From contig JAENZP010000001.1 of assembly GCA_016841205.1 (NCBI GenBank), positions 496,001 to 560,000 on the forward strand: a stretch of DNA of 64,000 nt, read 5' to 3'. Made by a program: the position numbers and the translations under genes. Source of the DNA: Desulfoscipio geothermicus. Its GTDB lineage: Bacteria > Bacillota > Desulfotomaculia > Desulfotomaculales > Desulfallaceae. Positions 10,784-30,093 of this stretch are shown piece by piece. The notes below the pieces were generated by a model. That model saw only the letters and a program-made list of their open reading frames with translations. It searched no databases and was not told the DNA's origin. The first letter of the stretch is position 1. Each line of letters starts with the position of its first letter.

Positions 10784-12010
10784 TTACTTCTCCGCGCTAA
10801 TGATATAAATGGGATTTAGAGCCTGCATCATATGTTTCCTTCCCACCAACCGCCCCTTCGATACCGAAACACCGGCAATATCAATGTCCCTGAATCCCCT
10901 ACTGTTCAAGCCTGCAATCGCTTCACCGGCTGTTTCAATCGCTACCGCATTTACCACAATTCTAATCTGGTGATTCATTTCAGCTGCCCAGTCCAAAATA
11001 CTATCCATCCGGCCATCCGTTCCCCCGATAAAAATGCGGTCCGGCTTGGGCAGATCCATTAATATATCAGGAGCCACTCCCTCTACCACTTTAACGTTTC
11101 CAAGTCCAAACTTCAGCACATTTTCCCGGATAAGCGCAAGGGCGTCCTTTTTCTTTTCTACAGCGTATACCCTGCCTTTTTTTACGATTAAACCGCATTC
11201 AATGGAAATCGATCCCGTACCCGCGCCAATATCATAAACGACAGAATCTTCCCGGAGCCTCATTTTGGATAATGCCACAGCTCTAATTTCTTCCTTGGTC
11301 ATGGGCACATCTCCTCTGACAAACAGTTCATCCGGTATACCGGGTGTGGCCATCTCCCAGACTTGCTTAATGGCAAGACCCTTGCCGGGATGCTCCACAA
11401 GCATAATTGAAAGACTGTCAAACTCAAGCTTCGCCATTTCTTCCGGAGAGCCTGTAACAATTCTTTCTTCCGGATAGGAAAGTTTCTCCCCAATAGTTAC
11501 CGTAACATCCCCTAATCCACTACTAATAAGCTCTCTGCATACGTGGACATGTGATGAGGCGCCACCGGTAAAAAGTATCACCTTGCCATGATTTTTGACT
11601 ATATTGGTTAGATTGTTCAGTTCCCTGCCATGGAGGCTGGCAATAAAAATATCATCCCAGCTTTTGTTGATTTTGGCACATAAATATTGCAGCGAGCTGA
11701 TGCCGGGATAAACTAGTAATTCTACATCGACAAGCCTGTTCTTCAAGTATTCCGAGATACTGAATACCCCCGGGTCTCCAGAGGCAAGCACTGCCATTTT
11801 CTTTTTGCCGATATGCTTAAGCATGTATCGTTCTATGCCGGCCAGATTATTGCCGATCACGACTTCTTCCTTCTCTAAATGTAGGAAAAGGTCTAGATTC
11901 CGCCTTCCCCCAATCAATACATCGCTTGCTTCTATCAGTTTATTCGCGGCAGGATAAATATAATTTTTATCTCCCGGTCCTATGCCGATAATATAAAGCT
12001 TATTGTCCAT
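10784..12010 (-). CDS. cbiET: Fused cobalt-precorrin C5/C15-methyltransferase and decarboxylase
   Basis: A natural fusion. The N-terminal half is CbiE, a tetrapyrrole methyltransferase (IIGIGPGDKNYIYPAA, VLASGDPGVFSISEYL). The C-terminal half, from about residue 220, is CbiT, a class I SAM methyltransferase and decarboxylase (VYDIGAGTGSISIECGL, RIFIGGTDGRMDSIL). The aerobic counterpart is CobL; separate cbiE and cbiT genes exist in many other bacteria. I chose the ATG at 12010, 6 nt after GGGAG, so the start overlaps the end of cbiD by 11 nt. Confidence 0.92.
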   Translation of the reverse strand: MDNKLYIIGIGPGDKNYIYPAANKLIEASDVLIGGRRNLDLFLHLEKEEVVIGNNLAGIERYMLKHIGKKKMAVLASGDPGVFSISEYLKNRLVDVELLVYPGISSLQYLCAKINKSWDDIFIASLHGRELNNLTNIVKNHGKVILFTGGASSHVHVCRELISSGLGDVTVTIGEKLSYPEERIVTGSPEEMAKLEFDSLSIMLVEHPGKGLAIKQVWEMATPGIPDELFVRGDVPMTKEEIRAVALSKMRLREDSVVYDIGAGTGSISIECGLIVKKGRVYAVEKKKDALALIRENVLKFGLGNVKVVEGVAPDILMDLPKPDRIFIGGTDGRMDSILDWAAEMNHQIRIVVNAVAIETAGEAIAGLNSRGFRDIDIAGVSVSKGRLVGRKHMMQALNPIYIISAEK

Positions 12011-13808: not shown

Positions 13809-14682
13809 GCTTCCACACTCCCCTGGCACTTTTATCTTGACTTATTTTCCAATCCTTCAGCAACCTGCGGGCTTCAGAGATGGTGTTCGCTGTATCATTA
13901 AAGGCAAAGCCGTCTTTGTCTTTTAGAATTTCCATCAAATGCCCGATTCTAGGCAATCTTAGATTTACCTCCCTTAGGCCATCCGGCTGACCGAACACCT
14001 CTTTAGGCGTGCCTGCCAACACAATCTTTCCCTGGTCCAAGACATACGTATAGTCACAGTAAAGCGGTATAATATCAATATCATGCGTTGCAATAACCAC
14101 AGACAAGCCCAATTCCTGCTGGATCTCCCTGAGCAACTTCATGATTTCACTAACCCCCATGGGGTCAAGTCCGGCCGTTGGCTCATCCAACACCAGCACC
14201 TCCGGCTCCATAGCCAACACCCCTGCAATGGCCACTCTCTTTTTCTGCCCGAAGCTGAGACAGTGAGTGGGCTTATCTTTTAAATGAGTTATGCCTGTTT
14301 GCTCCATGGCAATATTTACTCTCTTGCGCACTTCCTCTGCAGGCAATTTCATATTCACCGCCCCAAAGGATATATCCTGGTATACGTTGGCTGAAAACAA
14401 CTGGCTGTCGGGATCTTGAAATACGATACCGACGGCTTGGCGCAGGTTTCTAAGACCGGCCCGGGAATAATTCACAGGCAGCCCCTTAAATAAAACCACA
14501 CCGGATGTGGGCTTAAATATACCGTTAAGCGAAAGAAATAAGGTTGACTTCCCCGCTCCGTTACCTCCCAATACTGCAGTCGTCTTACCTTGCTTTATGC
14601 CAAGTGTCAAACCGTTTAAAGCCTGTGTCCCGTCACTATATGTGTAATGAAGGTCTCGCACCTCCAGTATATGCTTAATCAT
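13792..14682 (-). CDS. cbiO: Cobalt ECF transporter ATPase CbiO
   Basis: ATP-binding subunit that powers cobalt uptake with CbiMNQ. Motifs: Walker A GGNGAGKSTLF, Q-loop FQDPDSQLF, signature LSFGQKKRVAIAGVLA, Walker B VLVLDEPTAGLDP and switch histidine ATHDID. The ATG at 14682 overlaps the cbiQ stop (TGATG) and is preceded by a GGCGGGG site; longer frames starting inside cbiQ are not needed. A C-terminal extension (from about residue 240) is typical of CbiO-type proteins. Confidence 0.95.
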   Translation of the reverse strand: MIKHILEVRDLHYTYSDGTQALNGLTLGIKQGKTTAVLGGNGAGKSTLFLSLNGIFKPTSGVVLFKGLPVNYSRAGLRNLRQAVGIVFQDPDSQLFSANVYQDISFGAVNMKLPAEEVRKRVNIAMEQTGITHLKDKPTHCLSFGQKKRVAIAGVLAMEPEVLVLDEPTAGLDPMGVSEIMKLLREIQQELGLSVVIATHDIDIIPLYCDYTYVLDQGKIVLAGTPKEVFGQPDGLREVNLRLPRIGHLMEILKDKDGFAFNDTANTISEARRLLKDWKISQDKSARGVWKHVRRN

Positions 14683-15473
14683 CAAAGCACCCCGCCTGCG
14701 TATCGTTTCAAGAACAGTGCAATGCCAAAAAGGGCAAGATTTACCGTCACCGGAGGAATGTATTCTGTCCAATGTGTTTCCCAAGGCTCTTCCAACACAC
14801 TAAGTTCTCCGTCATATCCCCTTGCTTCAAGGGCTGTGTAAAGCTCATTAGACCTTTGGTAAGCACGGATGAAAAGGGTTGATACCAGTGCTGCCAGTGA
14901 ACGGTAGGTTGAAGTAAGATCAGCATATCCCAAACGCGAACTTTGTGCAGTATGCATAGTCTCAGCCGCTTCAAGCAGTACGAAAATAAACCGATAGATT
15001 AGTCCCATTAATTCAACAATCAGTTTAGGTACTTTAAGTCTGCGCAGAACTGCCAATAAATCAACCAAGGGTGTACTAAGCGATAAAAAATACAAACAGG
15101 AAACCGCTCCCATTGACTTAAAAAATAAATGGGCTGCTTGATGCATACCTAACTTGGTCACACCTATATGCGTGCCAAAAGCAGCTATAGAAAACAGAAA
15201 AATATCCTTATTTCCGGAAGCATTGATCGCGATCGTTAAAACACCTATGATTAAAAAGGATATCGGTAACAACATAAGCTTAATAAATAGTGCAACCGGT
15301 GCACCACCTTTGCAGACAGTGCACCACCCCATCATAAAAAGCACTAAAACAGATATCAAAACAGAATTAGCCCAAAGGCATACCGCAAGAGCAAGCATGG
15401 CAAAGATAAGCTTTTTCATAGGGGCAGTCTGTTTCAGTTTTGAACTATATGCATATTTATCCATGTTTGTCAT
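14682..15473 (-). CDS. cbiQ: Cobalt ECF transporter transmembrane protein CbiQ
   Basis: Membrane subunit that couples the CbiO ATPase to substrate-binding CbiM. Several hydrophobic helices span residues 18-140, followed by the coupling region with AQSSRLGYAD and ALEARGYDGEL, the short Ala-Arg-Gly motifs expected at the ATPase interface. A last helix lies near the C-terminus. Start overlaps the cbiN stop by 4 nt and its own stop overlaps the cbiO start. Confidence 0.93.
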   Translation of the reverse strand: MTNMDKYAYSSKLKQTAPMKKLIFAMLALAVCLWANSVLISVLVLFMMGWCTVCKGGAPVALFIKLMLLPISFLIIGVLTIAINASGNKDIFLFSIAAFGTHIGVTKLGMHQAAHLFFKSMGAVSCLYFLSLSTPLVDLLAVLRRLKVPKLIVELMGLIYRFIFVLLEAAETMHTAQSSRLGYADLTSTYRSLAALVSTLFIRAYQRSNELYTALEARGYDGELSVLEEPWETHWTEYIPPVTVNLALFGIALFLKRYAGGVL

Positions 15474-15772
15474 TGCTTAGCTGCTTCTTCCTTCTTTTTT
15501 CTTCCCATCATGTGGCCCAATCCATAGAAAAGAATTCCTGATCCAATAGCTGCCTGGAGAGAGAAAAGCAAGCTTTCGATTTCACCGCTCTTAGGTTCAA
15601 TTAACGGTGAAAACCAGGGGTTGTAGTCAGCATCAATCTCGGTTATGGCCTGTTTCGCTTCGCCATCTGCCCCGCCAAATTCAGCGTCCTTTTGCGTAAA
15701 AAGCGGTATAACGATTAGTGCGATAACAATGGCGATCAATAACAAATTCTTTATAACACCTGTCATAGACAT
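15470..15772 (-). CDS. cbiN: Cobalt transport protein CbiN
   Basis: Small two-helix membrane protein (100 residues) needed for metal loading of CbiM. Helix 1 is about residues 6-24 and helix 2 about 72-90. Between them lies an extracytoplasmic loop with DAEFGGADGEAKQAI and YNPWFSPL, the usual CbiN signature. It sits 2 nt after cbiM and overlaps cbiQ, so expression is coupled. Confidence 0.94.
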   Translation of the reverse strand: MSMTGVIKNLLLIAIVIALIVIPLFTQKDAEFGGADGEAKQAITEIDADYNPWFSPLIEPKSGEIESLLFSLQAAIGSGILFYGLGHMMGRKKKEEAAKQ

Positions 15773-15774
15773 CT

Positions 15775-16515
15775 TTACGCCTCCTTCGAAAGTACTTTCA
15801 AATCTTGGAGTTCGTCCTTGCCATAAGCAGCAATAGCATTAAATACCAGTACTGTCAATATGCCTTCACTAATCGCCAAGGGTATCTGCGTAACAGCGAA
15901 TATGCCCATAAACTTGGCCAGTGATACCATGAAACCGCCTGTTTCAGCAGGAAAAGCAAGAGCCAACTGTATTGAAGTCATCACATAAGTCAGTAAATCG
16001 CCAAGTGCTGCCGCTAGAAATATGGCCAACCACTGAGGCCCCTTGGCCTGCTGAACAATTTTATAGGTAGCAAAGGATACCAAAGGACCTACCACCGCCA
16101 TGGAAAAAGTATTGGCCCCCAGTGTCGTAATACCTCCATGGGCAAGCAAAACAGCCTGAAACAACAGCACAATCAATCCCAACACAGTCATGGCCGTAGG
16201 CCCGAACAAAATAGCGCCAAGACCTACTCCTGTTGGATGAGAGCAGCTTCCCGTAACCGAAGGTATTTTAAGTGCCGAAAGCACAAAAGCAAAAGCGCCT
16301 ACCATAGCCAGAAGCATTTTAGCTCTAGGATGCTCATTAATTGTTTTCTGTATTGAAAAGACTCCTGCTAATACAAAGGGAATGGTTAAAACACCCCAGG
16401 ATATACACCAGCCGGGCGGCAGAAACCCCTCCATTATATGCATGGCCCAAGCTGCCTGAGGTAATAAGATAAACATAAGCATAAAGCCAATTATCCAGAT
16501 TCTTTTCTTTGACAC
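15775..16515 (-). CDS. cbiM: Cobalt-binding ECF component CbiM
   Basis: Substrate-binding membrane subunit of the cobalt transporter. A cleavable signal peptide (to about residue 24) exposes the mature N-terminus [12 protein letters not shown]; the Met-His start that binds the metal must be generated by cleavage. Several helices follow, with [17 protein letters not shown] characteristic of the family. The start is a GTG preceded by AAGGGTG. First gene of the operon behind the B12 riboswitch, so cobalt uptake and corrin synthesis are shut down together. Confidence 0.94.
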
Positions 16516-18836: not shown

Positions 18837-20030
18837 TTATTCTACATATGTAATAACCTCGGGTGTAATGCTCAAATACTCGGGGCCATGCTCAGTCATA
18901 ACAAAACTGTTTTCAGTACCAATAGCACCTTCGGGAAATACAAATTTAGGTTCAAGAGCAAAAGTCATTCCAGGCATAATAGGATCTTTCACTCCTTTGG
19001 CCAATACAGGTAATTCATCTAGTTCCAAACCTATTCCATGGCCAATAAATTTAACTCTATCGTCCTTATAACCCATAAAGTTATCTTTGTAACCCATTTC
19101 TTCCGCCAATTTTATAGCCAGTAAATATGGTACCTCCGCCGGAGTTCCTGGTTTAATAGCCTTGAGAATCTCTTCTTCAATAAATAATGAATCATTAAAT
19201 GCCTTGACCATCTGAGGTGAAAGTTCTCCTATAGAAAATATCCGGGTTTGGTCGCCTGTATAACCATGAACTACACACGTATAATCAATATAAACAACTT
19301 CATTCCGATTAACCGTTTTCCACCCGGCACCCTGGGGATTGCTTATAGCAACACCAGATCCACCAACTGGCCCGTCAAAGAAATTTGGATAAAATCCACC
19401 ACTACCCGTACAGGTATTTCCTAAAAAGAATTCTTGATTAAAGGCCCGCATCTTGCACCAACCGCTAAACCCCCGCTTACGCATTTCAGCCTCAAAAAGT
19501 GCAGCCAGCTCAATCTCCAACATTCCTTCACGCAAAAATGATGGTACAGACAAATGGGCTTTATCTATCACACCTAATGCATCGCGAAGAAGTCCTATTT
19601 CATATGGTGATTTAATTGCACGAATTTCCCTAACTATAGGCGAAATATCGCTAAATTCAGTTTCCGGCATAATTTTTTGATACATTTTATAAAGATTCAA
19701 TGGCAATACATCAAGTTCCAGCCCGATTTTGTTAAAATTAGTATAATCAAATTCAGCAAGAATCCCCGGAATCTCCTTGGGACTACGGATCGGAACAATA
19801 TTTTTTAGAGGCGACTCATGCTTTCCACGTGCCAAACTCTTTTTGATCATCAATACCGGTTCGCCAATCGCAGGTATAAACAAAAACGCGGTCTGTACCG
19901 TACCGGTAAAGTAAAACATATCACTGTGAAGTAAAATGAGAGTTCCATCCAACGCCTGCTCGGTCAGTTTTTCTTGAAGCTTTTTAACTCTTGCATCTAT
20001 CTCCGATTTTGGAGTTTTTTCCATTTCCAT
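18837..20030 (-). CDS. M24 family metallopeptidase (Xaa-Pro aminopeptidase/creatinase-like)
   Basis: A creatinase-type N-terminal domain (about 1-135) is followed by the pita-bread M24 domain. Metal ligands are visible in order: Asp in VYIDYTC, Asp in GYTGDQTR, His in FIGHGIGLELDE, Glu in FALEPKFVF and Glu in IGTENSFV. So a two-metal hydrolase acting on Xaa-Pro peptides or related amides is expected. I chose the ATG at 20030 (GGGGAG about 9 nt upstream); a GTG at 20108 would add 26 unlike residues. Why a peptidase sits between CoA-transferase and mutase genes is unclear; it may act on an amide of the pathway. Confidence 0.8.
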   Translation of the reverse strand: MEMEKTPKSEIDARVKKLQEKLTEQALDGTLILLHSDMFYFTGTVQTAFLFIPAIGEPVLMIKKSLARGKHESPLKNIVPIRSPKEIPGILAEFDYTNFNKIGLELDVLPLNLYKMYQKIMPETEFSDISPIVREIRAIKSPYEIGLLRDALGVIDKAHLSVPSFLREGMLEIELAALFEAEMRKRGFSGWCKMRAFNQEFFLGNTCTGSGGFYPNFFDGPVGGSGVAISNPQGAGWKTVNRNEVVYIDYTCVVHGYTGDQTRIFSIGELSPQMVKAFNDSLFIEEEILKAIKPGTPAEVPYLLAIKLAEEMGYKDNFMGYKDDRVKFIGHGIGLELDELPVLAKGVKDPIMPGMTFALEPKFVFPEGAIGTENSFVMTEHGPEYLSITPEVITYVE

Positions 20031-20421
20031 TTTTTTGTTCTCCCCAACTTTTATGTGATTATTATTTGAATCCAGTGAGATTGTTTCTATGGTAAAATTT
20101 AGCTCCACCTGTTTACGAAATTTTTTAAGTTCTTTATATAATTGAGAACCAGGTAGTAGCGAGTTGTTGATGAACTAGTTAATTTTATGAGGTAGTTTTC
20201 ATGATACTTATCGCAGGTGGAGTTTATTATCATCATAAATAAACGAGTCATCTAAAAAATATAGTCGAAGCGTTTTCTAGCAGAGCCAAGTATGTTATAG
20301 TATAGTGGGTAGTTATACTCATATATTATTTTTATTTGTGTTTGTTTAGCCGCAAATACCATCCTAAGGTTTCCCGTTCCACCTTATCTCTAATTCCCGG
20401 AAAAATTATAGGATTGGCTTT
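20031..20421. other. AT-rich intergenic region
   Basis: No gene recognised between the AbrB-like gene and the M24 peptidase. An imperfect inverted repeat (agtatagtgggtagttatact, about 20297-20317) is the only structure noticed. No GG-N10-GC promoter was found here, so the peptidase may be transcribed from further upstream. Confidence 0.4.
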
Positions 20422-21383: not shown

Positions 21384-21926
21384 TTACACTTCACTAGCCA
21401 TGTTTTCACCAAATGGCTGCACATAGCCTTCTCTTATCCCCTGATAGATAAACTCAACTGCCAGACTTGTACTGACAACAACCATTTTCATGCAACTACG
21501 GGCACGATTTTTATCATGCCAATCGGAATATTCCTTGTTTAGCCTTTTACAAAGAGTTGACCCAAACTCTTCCTCAAAGCGGTGGGGAATCTGATTAAAG
21601 AACCTGTACAGACCGGGATTGCCATAAAGCTGATCAATAATTTCCTTTAGGGTTCCTTCATGAGGGTTGCGTCGTCCGTGCACTGAACTGACCCCCATCA
21701 TAAGGCCAATCAGCGCTCCACATACCCCACCGGTTAGTCCCATACCACCGCCAAAGGCAGTTGCAATTGCTACAGTTTCAGGTGGAAAATCAATTAAGCC
21801 AACTTCTACCAGGGCTGCATAAACAGATTCCGAACAGTTAAGTCCTTTACGAAAATTGTTTTTAGCAGCTGCGCAGGCTTTTTCTTTCAATTCCTCTTCA
21901 GGCACCATTAAAATATCACCCTGCAC
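21384..21926 (-). CDS. C_GCAxxG_C_C family putative redox protein
   Basis: Residues GLNCSESVYAAL and the glycine-rich GGGMGLTGGVCGALIGLMM give the first cysteines of the C-GCAxxG-C-C pattern; further cysteines follow in LCKRLN and SCMKMV. Members are small proteins thought to carry a redox centre; many occur in anaerobes near oxidoreductases. The GTG start follows GGGGGTG by 6-8 nt. It lies 18 nt after the B12-domain paralogue gene, inside the mutase operon, so it may handle electrons for reactivation of the corrinoid, though that is speculation. Confidence 0.75.
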   Translation of the reverse strand: MQGDILMVPEEELKEKACAAAKNNFRKGLNCSESVYAALVEVGLIDFPPETVAIATAFGGGMGLTGGVCGALIGLMMGVSSVHGRRNPHEGTLKEIIDQLYGNPGLYRFFNQIPHRFEEEFGSTLCKRLNKEYSDWHDKNRARSCMKMVVVSTSLAVEFIYQGIREGYVQPFGENMASEV

Positions 21927-21944: not shown

Positions 21945-22352
21945 TCATTTAGAGGCTGCTATTTGCCTCAGAACCTCCGCTATTGTCCTGACGGAAGAAC
22001 CTGGCGAAAATATCTCCGTCACCGATCCGGATTCCTTTAGAGCGGTCTTATGCTTTTTAGGTATGAACCCCCCACCAATGAGAATTATATCCTGGGCATC
22101 TCTGGCGTCCAATAATTCACGAAGTCGGGGAAATAGTTCCATTTCATGACCGTTACTTACACCCAATCCCACTACGTCAACATTTTCCTGCAATGCTGCA
22201 TCAACTATCTCGTCTAGTGAACGGTATAAACCGGTGAAAATAACATCCATACCGCATTCATCCCTCAACCCGCGAGCAACCAGACGTATTTCTTTACCGT
22301 CAGAATCCAGACCGGTTTTAGCCAGCAGGACTCTCATTGGTTTATTCTTCAT
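21945..22352 (-). CDS. B12-binding-domain paralogue lacking the cobalt-ligating histidine
   Basis: A 135-residue protein that aligns without gaps at its start to the mutase small subunit (134 residues) of the same operon. The lower-ligand motif D-x-H-x-x-G, intact as Asp16-His18-Gly21 in the neighbour, reads Asp16-Asp18-Glu21 here. The later IGGGFIP and SPGS segments of the fold are kept. So the flavodoxin-like corrinoid fold is likely but base-off/His-on cobalamin binding is not. It may be a structural, sensory or competitor subunit. The ATG at 22352 follows GAGGGG by about 9 nt. It lies between meaB and the C_GCAxxG protein gene. Confidence 0.8.
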   Translation of the reverse strand: MKNKPMRVLLAKTGLDSDGKEIRLVARGLRDECGMDVIFTGLYRSLDEIVDAALQENVDVVGLGVSNGHEMELFPRLRELLDARDAQDIILIGGGFIPKKHKTALKESGSVTEIFSPGSSVRTIAEVLRQIAASK

Positions 22353-22411
22353 ACCCAACACCCCTCAAAAGTATTGGCTTTTAAGCATAATAGCTAGACC
22401 TTACGGCAATC

Positions 22412-23371
22412 TCAACTAGCCATATATTTTTTTGCCACTAACTCAGCTAAAGAATAAGGATCTAACTCTCTCTTCATAATTTTTTGTATCATAGTTTCTA
22501 GTTCGCCATTCGCTGTTAGTTCATTAAGAATCGGCTCTAAAATTGTAGCTCGTAAAGATTCATTAATTTCCGCCGTAGCCTTACGATGTTTACGAACAGC
22601 TAAAATGTTGCTTTTTACTAAAAACTGATAATGCTCATCTATTTTATCAGTCAAATCTGAGACGCTTTGGGCAAAGGATATGGGGTCTGCAACGTTCTCT
22701 ACAGTAACGATGGGAGGAATCCAACCATCATCCCATTTCCCCATTTGGAGCATATTCAAGGTCTCCTGGTAAAGTTTAGATGCACCATCGCGATCAGCTT
22801 TATTTATAACAAATATATCGGCTATCTCCATTAAACCAGCCTTTAGAGCCTGCACTTCATCGCCCATACCGGGAACCAGAACAACCAATACGGTATGAGC
22901 GTGATTTATTATTTCCACCTCTTGCTGTCCAACTCCGACTGTTTCAACTATGATAACGTCTTTACCCATAGCATCAAGCACGTGAATTCCATCACCAACT
23001 GCCTTGGATAACCCACCCATAGCCCCACGAGTAGCCAGGCTGCGCACGAAAACGCCGGTATCCTCAGCATGACGCTGCATACGAATCCTATCCCCAAGCA
23101 AAGCTCCACCCGTAAAAGGACTGGTGGGGTCAACTGCCATTACACCCACAGTTTTGTCTTTTTTACGATAAGCAGCCGCCATTTCATCAGTAAGGGTGCT
23201 CTTGCCTGCCCCTGGTGATCCGGTAATTCCTATAACATGTGCTTTACCGGTAAACGGGAAAATATCTTTAATCTCTGCTTCAGTGCCCGGCAGGTTATCT
23301 TCCATGTTTCTAATTAGGCGGGAGGCAGCACGAATGTCCCCCTCCATTGCTCTCTTCCCTAACTCCGCCAT
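22412..23371 (-). CDS. meaB: MeaB/ArgK-type G-protein chaperone of B12 mutase
   Basis: A SIMIBI-class GTPase that protects acyl-CoA mutases and gates cofactor loading. Walker A is GSPGAGKSTLTDEMA; the Mg site and Walker B region appear in VMAVDPTSPFTGGALLGDRIRM and VETVGVGQQEVEI, and NKADRDGA is the guanine-specificity motif. Length (319) is typical. It starts 4 nt after the small mutase subunit. In IcmF enzymes this domain is fused to the mutase; here it is separate. Confidence 0.92.
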   Translation of the reverse strand: MAELGKRAMEGDIRAASRLIRNMEDNLPGTEAEIKDIFPFTGKAHVIGITGSPGAGKSTLTDEMAAAYRKKDKTVGVMAVDPTSPFTGGALLGDRIRMQRHAEDTGVFVRSLATRGAMGGLSKAVGDGIHVLDAMGKDVIIVETVGVGQQEVEIINHAHTVLVVLVPGMGDEVQALKAGLMEIADIFVINKADRDGASKLYQETLNMLQMGKWDDGWIPPIVTVENVADPISFAQSVSDLTDKIDEHYQFLVKSNILAVRKHRKATAEINESLRATILEPILNELTANGELETMIQKIMKRELDPYSLAELVAKKYMAS

Positions 23372-23375
23372 GTTA

Positions 23376-23780
23376 TCACGCCCTCGGATGAATATTTTCG
23401 TTGACCCAAGCCACTAGAGAATCCAGCGGGGCACCAGGAGTAAAAATTGCCTTCAGTCCTGCATCGTAAAGGGGCTGCATATCCTTATCGGGTATAATTC
23501 CTCCCCCAATTACCGCTATATCACCGGCACCCTGTTCCTGTAAAAGCTTAACTACCTGTGGGAATAAATACTTGTGTGCCCCGGACAGACAGCTCAAACC
23601 CACAACATCAACATCCTCTTGAATAGCGGCAGAAGCAATTTGTTCAGGGGTTTGGTGACAACCGGTATAAATTACTTCAAAGCCTGCATCCCGAAAACAT
23701 CTGGCTATAACTTTTGCACCCCGGTCGTGTCCATCCAAACCTGGTTTAGCAACCAATACACGTATTTTCTTATCCGGCAT
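23376..23780 (-). CDS. icmB: B12-binding small subunit of acyl-CoA mutase
   Basis: Cobalamin-binding subunit (134 residues) that pairs with the catalytic large subunit. The lower-ligand motif [11 protein letters not shown] is intact (His18), followed by [14 protein letters not shown] and IGGGIIP, the standard corrinoid-binding loops. I chose the ATG at 23780, which has a perfect AGGAGG 9 nt upstream; a longer frame would run into the large subunit gene. The separate large/small layout and length fit isobutyryl-CoA mutase (IcmA/IcmB) and split methylmalonyl-CoA mutases alike; the specificity is argued from the large subunit. Confidence 0.88.
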
Positions 23781-23805
23781 ATTACTTTTCCTCCTTACAA
23801 TAGTT

Positions 23806-25485
23806 TTAGTAAATTCCAGGATCCCGATATTCGCCGTAGACTTCTCGATAAACATCGCATATTTCTTGCACAGTGCTATAAGCCTTCACAGCCTCAATAC
23901 AGAACGGCATTACATTTTCGCCCTTCTTGCATGCCTGGGCAAGATCCTTCAGGCACTCGGTGACATGACGGTTATCCCGTTTCCGTTTTACTTCGTGTAG
24001 GCGTGCAATCTGTTCAGTTTCTACCGAATCGTCGATTTCGATTAGCGGAATCTCAACTTCTTCATCAGTGATATACTTGTTGATGCCAATCATGATCTTT
24101 TCACCGGCATCAATTTGCTTTTGATATCTGTAAGAGGCATCGGAAATTTCCAACTGCGGGAATCCATTTTCAATGGCCTTAACCATTCCGCCCATATCGT
24201 CGATCTTATGAATATATTCCCAAGCTTTCTCTTCCATTTCGTTAGTCAGTGCTTCTATAAAATAGGAACCGGCCAGCGGATCAATGGTGTTGGCCACACC
24301 GGTCTCTTCAGCTATAATTTGTTGTGTTCTGAGGGCTATCTGTACCGCGTGATCGGAAGGCAGGCATAAAACCTCATCCAGAGAATTAGTGTGCAGGGAC
24401 TGAGTTCCTCCCAAAACTCCGGCCAATGCTTCAACAGCAGTTCTTATCACATTATTGTAAGGCTGTTGAGCAGTTAGTGAGCATCCTGCAGTCTGGGTAT
24501 GGAAGCGCATCCACAATGATCTGGGATCCTTGGCTTTATAGCGTTCCTTCATGGCTTTGGCCCAGATCCTGCGGGCAGCTCGCATCTTAGCAATCTCTTC
24601 AAAGAAATCGATATGAGCGTTAAAGAAGAAGGAAAGTCTAGGAGCAAACTCGTCAACATCCAAACCCTTGCGACGGATAACGTCTTCAACATATTCCATA
24701 CCGTCACGCAGGGTAAAGGCAAGTTCCTGCACAGCCGTGGCACCGGCTTCTCTAATGTGATAACCGCTTATGCTAATGGTGTTCCACCTAGGGACAAATT
24801 TAGTTCCAAATTCAACCGTATCGCTAATGAGCTTTACTGATGCATCTGGCGGGCACATAAGAGTTTTCTGTGCAATAAACTCTTTTAACATATCGTTCTG
24901 AATGGTTCCCCCAACCTTATTTATTGGTACGCCTTGTATTTCAGCAGAAGCCAGATACATAGCCCAAATGGCTGTAGCCGGAGGATTGATGGTCATGGAA
25001 GTAGTTATTTTGTCCAGGGGAATACCTTTGACCAGGGTCTGAAAATCATCAATGGTATCGATTGCCACACCACATTTACCGCATTCGCCCTTGGCCTTGG
25101 GAGAATCACTGTCATAGCCCATCAGGGTTGGAAAATCAAAAGCAGTGCTTAACCCGGTTTGTCCGGTTTTAAGCAGGTAATGCCAGCGTTCGTTGGTTTC
25201 GGCCGCGCTGCCCATACCGGAAAACATTCTGAAGGTCCAATATTTGCCACGATACCCGGTAGGCTGATTGCCACGCAGGTATGGATACTGACCTGGGTAG
25301 GCTATATCCTTTTCAAAATCCATGTCCTTGATGTCTTCGGGACCATAAATTCTTTTGATCGGCAGATCGGAAACTGTGGTCCACTCGGGTTTCTGGTCAG
25401 CGCTCTTCGCTACTACTTTTTTTACCTCGTCCTCCCATTTTTTCCTTAACGAACTTGATTGATTCAGGACATCTTCAGTAAACAA
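23806..25485 (-). CDS. icmA: B12-dependent acyl-CoA mutase large subunit, isobutyryl-CoA mutase-like
   Basis: A TIM-barrel mutase (559 residues) that rearranges an acyl-CoA through an adenosyl radical. Against recalled methylmalonyl-CoA mutase of Propionibacterium it aligns with an offset of one: Thr84 and Arg86 are kept, His243 ([15 protein letters not shown]) and Gln196 (GTIQND) are kept. The two residues that hold the methylmalonyl carboxylate differ: Tyr89 is Phe88 (WTFRMFSG) and Arg207 is Gln206 (KEFIAQK). Phe and Gln at these places define isobutyryl-CoA mutase. Start is TTG with GGAGGGG upstream. Automatic annotation would probably call it methylmalonyl-CoA mutase. It is the second gene after cobO. 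Confidence 0.88.
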
Positions 25486-25559: not shown

Positions 25560-26102
25560 TTAGTATTCAATGCCAGCTCTATCTTTTATCCCGGCAGCAT
25601 AATGATGTTTGATCTCTTTAACTTCACTGACCATGTCGGCTAATTCTTTTAGTTCTTCAAAAGCATACCTGCCTGTCAACATAATATCTACATCAGATGG
25701 CTTGCTGCGTACCAATTGAAGCACCTCAGCCTTTGTTATGAGATTGAAGTCGACCGCCACATTTATTTCATCAAGAATGACCATGTCAAACTCTCCACTG
25801 TTAATTACTTCCTTAGCTTTTTCAAGACCTAACTTTGCTAGATCAATATCAACCGGGGCAGTGTTATCCCGCATGACAAAACTATCCAGGCCAAATTGAT
25901 AATATGTAAAATTAGGCAGGTATTTTTCAGCCGCCAAGACCTCACCGTATTTTCGTCCTTTCATAAACTGAATCATGCATACGCGGTAGCCCTGCCCAAT
26001 AGCTCTTAAGGCTTGACCGAACGCTGATGTTGTTTTACCCTTGCCGTTTCCTGTAATCACCATTACCAAACCACGTTTTGCCATGGTTGCAGTGGACTCC
26101 AT
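25560..26102 (-). CDS. cobO: Cob(I)alamin adenosyltransferase, CobA/CobO type
   Basis: Makes adenosylcobalamin from ATP and reduced corrinoid; it serves both de novo synthesis and the mutase beside it. The P-loop is ITGNGKGKTTSAFG, followed by VCMIQFMKGRKYGE and VILDEINVAVDF, all typical of the BtuR/CobO family. The ATG at 26102 is given; a TTG at 26111 closer to the GGGG site is possible. First gene of the operon behind the sigma-54 promoter at 26219-26236, so supply of the cofactor is tied to demand by the mutase. Confidence 0.9.
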   Translation of the reverse strand: MESTATMAKRGLVMVITGNGKGKTTSAFGQALRAIGQGYRVCMIQFMKGRKYGEVLAAEKYLPNFTYYQFGLDSFVMRDNTAPVDIDLAKLGLEKAKEVINSGEFDMVILDEINVAVDFNLITKAEVLQLVRSKPSDVDIMLTGRYAFEELKELADMVSEVKEIKHHYAAGIKDRAGIEY

Positions 26103-26218
26103 TGTTGTCAATTTTCCCCACCCCTTTTTCTGTTTTTATCTTAGACAAGGCGTGTCTTCCATTTGCTTATATAGGCTCGTTTTTATAAAGCAGTAAATTA
26201 ATTTTATACTTTATCAAT

Positions 26219-29046: not shown

Positions 29047-30093
29047 TTACATTATTACTCCTGCTTCCTCAAATGTGGCCATCTCACTCATAATCCGGGT
29101 AGCCGCTTCAATGATATTAAAAGCTAAAGCAGCGCCGGTTCCCTCTCCGAGACGCAGACGCATCCTCAACATCGGTTCCTTCCCAATGGCCTCCAGCACT
29201 AACCTATGACCCGGTTCTTCAGACAAATGGGATGCTATCATATAATCCTTAACCTGGGGAACTATCTTATAGGCTATTAAAGCAGCAGCTCCTGAAATAA
29301 ATCCGTCTATTACTATTGGAACTTTTCGTACTGCCGCGCCTAAAAATAATCCTGTCATACCTGCTATTTCAAGTCCGCCTACCTTTGATAATACATCTAT
29401 TGGATCAGCAGGATCCGGCTTGTTTACCATTAAAGCGGTTTCAATTACTTTAATTTTATTAAGCACTCCCTCATCATTTAACCCTACACCCCGTCCAACT
29501 ATCGTAGATAAGGGTGCATCAGAATAAAGCCCAAGGATGGCACTGCTAGGAGTTGTGTTGCCTATTCCCATTTCACCGGTAGCTAACAAATTTATACCCT
29601 GGTCTATTTCCCCTTCGGCTACTTCCACTCCTATTTTAATAGCCTGAAGAGCTTCTTCCCTGGACATAGCCGACCCTTTGGCCATATTAGCTGTACCTAG
29701 CCTTACTTTTTCAGAAATCAGGTTTGCGTTATTCAAAGTTGGATCTGCAACTCCTATATCAACAACTTTAACCTGAGCCCCGGCACAACGAGACAATACA
29801 TTTATACCTGCTCCTCCATTTAAAAAATTATATACCATCTGAGGTGTTACAGACTGAGGGGCACAACTAACACCCTCCTCCACCACACCATGGTCACCAG
29901 CCATAACAATTACCATTTTGTTTTCTACCTTGGGCATGACATCGCCAGTAATTCCAGCCAATTGAATAACCAGGTCCTCCAAAACTCCAAGGCTTCCCAT
30001 AGGTTTGGTTAAGTTGTTAAGTCTAGCTGCTGCCTTTTGCATAGCATCGCCATCTAAAGGACCTATGTTTTTTATTAACTGATCAATATTCAT
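29047..30093 (-). CDS. cobT: Nicotinate-nucleotide:lower-base phosphoribosyltransferase
   Basis: Activates the lower ligand base (such as dimethylbenzimidazole) to its alpha-ribotide for attachment to cobinamide. Family segments are VMAGDHGVVEEGVSCAPQ, GMTGLFLGAA-type glycine loops, LLATGEMGIGNTTPSSA and the C-terminal RLRLGEGTGAALAF, which contains the catalytic glutamate. Length (348) is standard. It has its own B12 riboswitch upstream and a terminator downstream, so it is a separate unit from the cobU-cobC operon. Confidence 0.94.
   Translation of the reverse strand: MNIDQLIKNIGPLDGDAMQKAAARLNNLTKPMGSLGVLEDLVIQLAGITGDVMPKVENKMVIVMAGDHGVVEEGVSCAPQSVTPQMVYNFLNGGAGINVLSRCAGAQVKVVDIGVADPTLNNANLISEKVRLGTANMAKGSAMSREEALQAIKIGVEVAEGEIDQGINLLATGEMGIGNTTPSSAILGLYSDAPLSTIVGRGVGLNDEGVLNKIKVIETALMVNKPDPADPIDVLSKVGGLEIAGMTGLFLGAAVRKVPIVIDGFISGAAALIAYKIVPQVKDYMIASHLSEEPGHRLVLEAIGKEPMLRMRLRLGEGTGAALAFNIIEAATRIMSEMATFEEAGVIM

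Follow-up and report, generated by a model that had tools for sequence, protein, structure and literature searches.

What does a corrinoid-domain protein without its cobalt ligand do in the operon of a B12-dependent mutase? The question is raised by a reverse-strand operon in the 64,000-nucleotide stretch of Desulfoscipio geothermicus DNA analyzed here (the window). In order, its genes, all on the (-) strand, code for a CobA/BtuR-type cob(I)alamin adenosyltransferase (ATR; 25560..26111; 165.8 and 183.4 bits, narrowly below the curated thresholds, 167.75 and 185), a mutase large subunit (23806..25485), a true small (B12-binding) subunit with an intact DGHDRG motif (23376..23780; the listed open reading frame, 23376-23855, has an upstream extension), a MeaB-type GTPase, the adenosylcobalamin (AdoCbl)-loading chaperone (22412..23371; TIGR00750, 311.8 bits, cut-off 240.75), a second B12-domain protein (21945..22352; 135 amino acids) and a C_GCAxxG_C_C family protein (21384..21926). 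We designated the second B12-domain protein, a paralog of acyl-CoA mutase small subunits that has lost the cofactor motif, small2. Its gene starts with the ATG at 22352, with an in-frame GTG at 22361, and the protein includes the stretch AKTGLDSDGKEIRL. A promoter scan around small2 matched chance (11 found, 11.4 expected), and a terminator scan was little over it (8 found, 4.7 expected, sd 2.5).

The small2 protein scores above the cut-offs of the Pfam B12-binding domain (PF02310; 55.6 bits, cut-off 32.1) and of NCBIfam TIGR00640 (95.1 bits, cut-off 57.45). Its AlphaFold2 model, made with 11 aligned sequences, has a mean pLDDT of 91.1 and the five alternating strands and helices of a five-stranded Rossmann-like fold. 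The best PDB match of this predicted model was 4r3u_C, the small subunit (HcmB/IcmB) of 2-hydroxyisobutyryl-CoA mutase (TM 0.92, 1.3 Å, 41% identity). The profile scores and the confident fold indicate that small2 is a genuine gene rather than a chance open reading frame, and the model bears out the conserved fold proposed in the initial annotation. The same annotation described a residue-by-residue alignment with the true small subunit (GLDGHDRG), which is nearly the case: the two proteins share 40% identity over query residues 1-130, but the alignment needs two one-residue gaps. A second alignment gave 43% identity over residues 1-124.

Although the fold of small2 is predicted to be intact, its cofactor motifs are not. 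The neighbor's DGHDRG is replaced with DSDGKE (D16-S-D-G-K-E21; codons at 22290..22307, (-) strand). This is the change from D-x-H-x-x-G to D-x-D-x-x-E, with loss of the cobalt-ligating histidine, that had been reported from the sequence: His18 has become Asp and the motif Gly has become Glu. Furthermore, the ligand site, already described as dead, is changed beyond the histidine and the glycine, as the second corrinoid motif (SxL) reads GVS. The GG motif is intact (GGG at 93-95). In structures of B12 domains, SxL and the motif Gly line the pocket of the nucleotide tail. The alteration of the ligand His, the motif Gly and SxL together suggests that small2 binds no cobamide in the base-off/His-on mode. 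Thus, small2 resembles the HcmB/IcmB subunit in predicted fold, length, sequence (41% identity) and a position beside the genes for a large subunit and MeaB, but it has DSDGKE rather than DxHxxG and GVS rather than SxL, and it is additional to an intact small subunit.

The operon's large subunit is the sole PF01642 match of the genome, which leaves small2 without another acyl-CoA mutase to serve and rules out that it is a subunit of one. PF02310 has six matches in the genome, five of them above cut-off (small2 and the true small subunit included), and small2, used as a query in its own genome, matched only itself and the neighboring small subunit. The large subunit carries the motifs RMFSGM, GLSTAFD and EFIAQK, in which Phe, Ala and Gln align to Ile90, Asp117 and Gln208 of 2-hydroxyisobutyryl-CoA mutase (HCM). 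Phe and Gln thus occupy the places of Tyr89 and Arg207 of methylmalonyl-CoA mutase (MCM), and there is no Asp at HCM Asp117. All 23 large subunits examined in the group have the same residues (RMF[SA]GM, GLSTAFD, EFIAQK). Under the residue-substrate rule, in which we take Phe, Ala and Gln to denote isobutyryl-CoA mutase, the operon would encode an enzyme of the isobutyryl-CoA mutase type, neither an MCM nor an HCM. An isobutyryl-CoA mutase cluster of four genes in Syntrophothermus lipocalidus TGB-C1 (Slip_0757-0760) similarly includes an ATR, N- and C-terminal mutase proteins and a MeaB-like gene, but no second corrinoid subunit is among the four genes named there (PMC5017805).

Is small2 peculiar to this strain? 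We found it directly after the MeaB gene in 18 genomes (the window's and 17 related ones), which are the carriers found and not a census. The search of the order covered 113 genomes, 16 of them from the family, and a two-row profile separated G056 (299 bits) and the window copy (255 bits) from the next match (150 bits). Further carriers turned up among 398 genomes drawn from the phylum, in which the G471 copy scored 121.5 bits, and among the 63 genomes of the G411 class. A profile of 17 small2 proteins again found two carriers in the order (G056, 206.8 bits; window, 200.1 bits; next match, 171.5 bits), and seven in a 396-genome phylum draw (G172, G411, G431, G471, G390, G000 and G256; 193.5-209.5 bits; next match, 174.3 bits), a lead that is partly by construction because the profile was built from the members found. 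No carrier beyond G256 was found in its order or class, which comprise the same four genomes. Two loci are truncated: the G543 contig stops within small2, and the G510 contig stops within meaB, which hides the gene order relative to the small subunit in G510. The presence of a paralog next to the mutase and meaB genes of relatives, suggested as a check in the initial annotation, is therefore borne out, and the orthologs in 17 other genomes, together with the purifying selection described below, rule out drift in one strain. The gene is dispensable, however, as six operons (G535, G524, G320, G528, G367 and G210) among the 24 of this type that we retrieved lack it. For example, G210 has the ATR, large subunit, small subunit and MeaB genes alone.

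We also observed several recurrent neighbors of these operons. Of the 24 operons retrieved, 11 have the C_GCAxxG_C_C protein and 20 are followed by a gene for an IF-2B-family protein (PF01008), which the window lacks (no match by tblastn). The window has two adjoining genes of the CoA-transferase family (PF01144; 16960-18750); G504, G505 and G506 have close relatives of them (81-85% identical), located downstream of their own copy of the mutase operon at a distance of a few kb. An M24-type peptidase-like gene (18837-20108) is near the operon in 9 of 24 loci, the window included. A protein of about 190 amino acids (L118:6085-6684, (-) strand) recurs near the operons, with open reading frames in L060, L119, L159, L162, L169 and L170 that were judged similar by eye; the one copy tested had no Pfam match. 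Genes for cobalt transport (CbiM, CbiN and CbiQ) and for CobT are located inside the window at 14682-16515 and 29047-30093, which places the mutase operon in a B12-supply neighborhood.

The 18 small2 proteins form a graded series of motifs. Seven are intact, with DSHDRG in G411, G518, G543, G390, G519 and G521 and DAHDKG in G256. The others read DSHNKK (G431), DSDGKE (the window copy, G000), DQDGKE (G523), DNQDKE (G056), DSQNKK (G172, G510 and G511) and DPNNKR (G471, G504, G505 and G506). The ligand place is thus His in 8 proteins, Gln in 4, Asn in 4 and Asp in 2, so that the histidine is replaced in 10 of the 18. This distribution does not support the suggestion that Asp18 is conserved, and we dismissed the idea of a new, conserved ligand at Asp18. 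The motif Gly is retained in 7 of the 18 proteins; G431, which keeps the His without the Gly, does not show a clean direction of change. Each of the 11 degenerate proteins has a long charged residue in place of the Gly and a Lys at place 20, the latter also found in the intact G256 protein. SxL is absent from all 17 readable proteins; its third residue is His in eight, Tyr in eight and Ser in the window copy. At place 66, the six readable members that keep DxHxxG all read SxH or GxH. The alteration of SxL even in members with DxHxxG suggests that this change may have preceded the loss of the ligand His. The GG motif is EG in 8 of 17 proteins, and the six small2 proteins without a one-residue insertion all carry His. 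The small subunits of the same operons, on the other hand, read GLDGHDRG in all 22 sequences collected, a count that omits G390 (in-frame TGA) and G510 (small subunit on another contig).

We used a tree of 59 sequences, computed without the motif columns, to read the 18-member clade and trace its origin. All 18 small2 proteins, the window copy among them, form one starred clade (99/95), and the 22 same-operon small subunits form a separate starred clade (100/99), which rules out that small2 is a tandem duplicate of the adjoining small subunit. Indeed, the window protein is nearer to the small subunits of other operons (at most 50% identity within the family) than to its neighbor (43%). The nearest sequences outside the clade are the small subunits L097 and L098, at unstarred branches (99/75 and 98/66). 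Ancestral small2 probably kept the His, because 8 of the 18 proteins still have it, including the 81%-identical ortholog in G411. The His state requires a minimum of three changes on the tree. The window and G411 proteins are sisters (100/99), and since the G411 motif is intact, the window copy most simply lost its motif after their split; most of the change is on the branch of the window copy (0.23 vs 0.03). Recombination is not supported as an origin of the changed motif, as the four codons that differ from G411 need one or two base changes each. In a tree of 25 large subunits, in which 5 of 22 inner branches are starred, the window's large subunit is again paired with that of G411 (100/99) and the presence of small2 needs four changes. 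The non-carriers G524 and G535 are near the carrier G056 in this tree, with weak support (86/84).

Loss of the ligand did not release small2 from selection. The dN/dS ratios, estimated by NG86 with an experimental implementation, were 0.217 for G000-G411, 0.162 for G172-G431, 0.129 for G510-G511, 0.169 for G504-G471, 0.175 for G505-G506, 0.229 for G504-G505 and 0.142 for G172-G511. These seven pairs (0.13-0.23) have at least one ligand-less member, G000-G411 including the intact G411. A codon bootstrap of the first five pairs placed the 97.5% limits at 0.24-0.37. The His-bearing pair G519-G521 gave 0.072, and the true small subunit 0.010-0.076 in seven pairs; where both proteins were measured (six ligand-less pairs), dN/dS of small2 was approximately 2- to 23-fold the value for the true small subunit. 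Thus, small2 is under purifying selection, although weaker than that on the true small subunit. Furthermore, no internal stop interrupts any of the 17 complete small2 copies. In G390 (L119) the small2 frame is open and the true small subunit (approximately 11233-11635, (-) strand) contains a TGA in frame at an Arg position, which is either an error of the draft assembly or a true interruption.

Such numbers bear on the main alternative to a retained function, slow decay, by which a dispensable second corrinoid subunit would lose first the cofactor site, next the MeaB face and finally the gene, without gaining a role. The higher dN/dS of small2 relative to the true small subunit and the absence of the gene from 6 of 24 operons are consistent with decay. 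So is the stepwise series that runs from intact motifs through the loss of His and Gly (G000, G056 and G523) to the loss of GG and of the MeaB patch (G172, G431, G510, G511, G471 and G504-G506). However, we regard this explanation as unlikely, as dN/dS is far under 1 in the five bootstrapped pairs, the complete copies have no internal stops, and the replacement is patterned, every degenerate protein having Lys20 and a charged residue where Gly stood. Most of these fit D-x-[DNQ]-x-K-[EKR] and S-x-[HY]. The window and G411 proteins differ at 26 of 135 residues, and the changes since their split are denser on the cofactor side: within residues 1-130, 12 of 34 cofactor-loop positions differ vs 10 of 96 others (p = 0.0017, indicative only, because the loop limits were drawn from the motif spacing after the sequences had been seen).

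The position of small2 beside meaB in 18 of 18 genomes draws attention to the chaperone as a partner. In the structure of Methylobacterium extorquens MeaB with the apo Cbl domain of MCM, the contacts are a strand and acidic residues, and the isolated apo domain binds MeaB-GMPPCP and raises the GTPase activity 25-fold (PMC9974510). We mapped these contacts by alignment from 8DPB and IcmF, with E55 taken from the IcmF contacts (PMC9974510), to D31, strand 34-38 and Q54-E55-D56 of the true small subunit, which correspond to 31, 35-39 and 55-57 in small2. Under one chosen offset, MCM places 609, 612-616 and 634 agree in letter with the published residues, but the aligned letter at place 632 is Glu and not the Asp632 printed there (PMC9974510). 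The predicted small2 fold also resembles the MCM domain in that complex (8dpb_C, TM 0.82). The window copy keeps the MeaB-contact strand and most of the acidic places (D31, strand 35-39 and Q55-E56, with N57 in place of Asp, or QEN) but differs from the MCM domain, which has DGHDRG, in having no base-off/His-on motif. Hence, the window protein may still dock on MeaB. Elsewhere in the clade, QED is kept in 8 of 18 proteins (the seven with intact motifs and G523), G056 has QEK and the remaining eight are altered more. The acidic patch is therefore altered in 9 of the 10 non-intact proteins other than the window's, G523 being the exception, and the most derived members have lost both the GG motif and the acidic patch for MeaB docking.

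This pattern divides the proposal, made in the initial annotation, of an adaptor for MeaB: it is plausible for the window copy, which keeps most contact positions, but unlikely for the most derived orthologs, which have lost them. A stronger version holds that small2 is a permanently apo decoy or activator of MeaB, docking on the switch-I strand as the apo Cbl domain of the mutase does and setting the GTPase cycle. By analogy with the 25-fold activation by an apo domain alone (PMC9974510), an activator of this kind is a reasonable idea, and the gene order and the contacts retained in the window copy agree with it. We nevertheless judge it quite unlikely as a general explanation, given N57 in the window copy and the changed or missing patch in G056, G172, G431, G510, G511 and the four G471-type proteins. 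The loss of the patch in derived members argues that MeaB binding does not hold the clade as a whole.

Another alternative is that small2 binds a cobamide, another tetrapyrrole or a small ligand in a different mode, as a sensor or as a shuttle of AdoCbl from ATR to the mutase. There are known cofactor-domain folds that lack the ligand His, the Rossmann-like pocket fold of small2 is predicted to be kept, and genes for ATR in the operon and for CbiM, CbiN, CbiQ and CobT in the window are compatible with such a role. Yet the alteration extends to SxL and the motif Gly in the lining of the nucleotide-tail pocket, place 18 has no conserved residue and GG is EG in 8 of 17 proteins, all of which make this a very unlikely explanation.

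At a little short of even confidence, we favor instead a role for small2 as a cofactor-free pseudo-subunit of an isobutyryl-CoA-mutase-type complex that would act by protein contact, in assembly or in MeaB regulation. A small-subunit gene from another acyl-CoA mutase lineage may have entered the ATR-large-small-MeaB operon behind meaB with its DxHxxG intact. The corrinoid site would then have been lost in several descendants, the window copy included, through changes in the His ligand, the motif Gly (now bulky and charged) and the SxL loop, with the fold and first helix remaining under purifying selection. As the genome has no other acyl-CoA mutase that we could find, contact inside the IcmA-IcmB-MeaB assembly is the most likely mode of action. 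The putative partner would be the true small or the large subunit, to which small2 would add a non-catalytic B12 domain, and the window copy might also engage MeaB as a permanently apo client.

A precedent for a dead Cbl-type domain within a mutase complex is known. In heterodimeric MCM, one subunit is dead and retained in the complex (PMC10481361). This subunit, MutA (1req_B type), is like small2 a mutase paralog whose Cbl domain is non-catalytic yet kept in the complex (PMC10481361), but it has substrate-binding and Cbl-binding domains. In contrast, small2 is a stand-alone, degenerate B12-type domain (135 amino acids, a single domain, with TIGR00642 not among its matches). In the literature searched, titles and abstract openings described no second corrinoid subunit or icmB paralog, which is weak evidence of absence. 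At that level, a stand-alone, ligand-less B12-domain subunit that sits beside an intact one and has changed more than once appears to be new. A bolder reading, which we consider doubtful, is that anaerobic isobutyryl-CoA-type mutases have a third, cofactor-free and pseudoenzyme-like corrinoid-domain subunit, 'apo-locked' more than once by the patterned replacement of His, Gly and SxL, that docks on the mutase/MeaB loading machine and gates cofactor loading or assembly.

The loading of AdoCbl by ATR and MeaB-type chaperones is partly open, since MeaB itself does not bind the cofactor (PMC9974510). If small2 acts as proposed, a stand-alone, cofactor-free Cbl-type domain beside MeaB, with relatives that keep the ligand, would be a natural separation of docking from cofactor binding. 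The window and G411 proteins, 81% identical and most different in their cofactor loops, would provide a natural matched pair.
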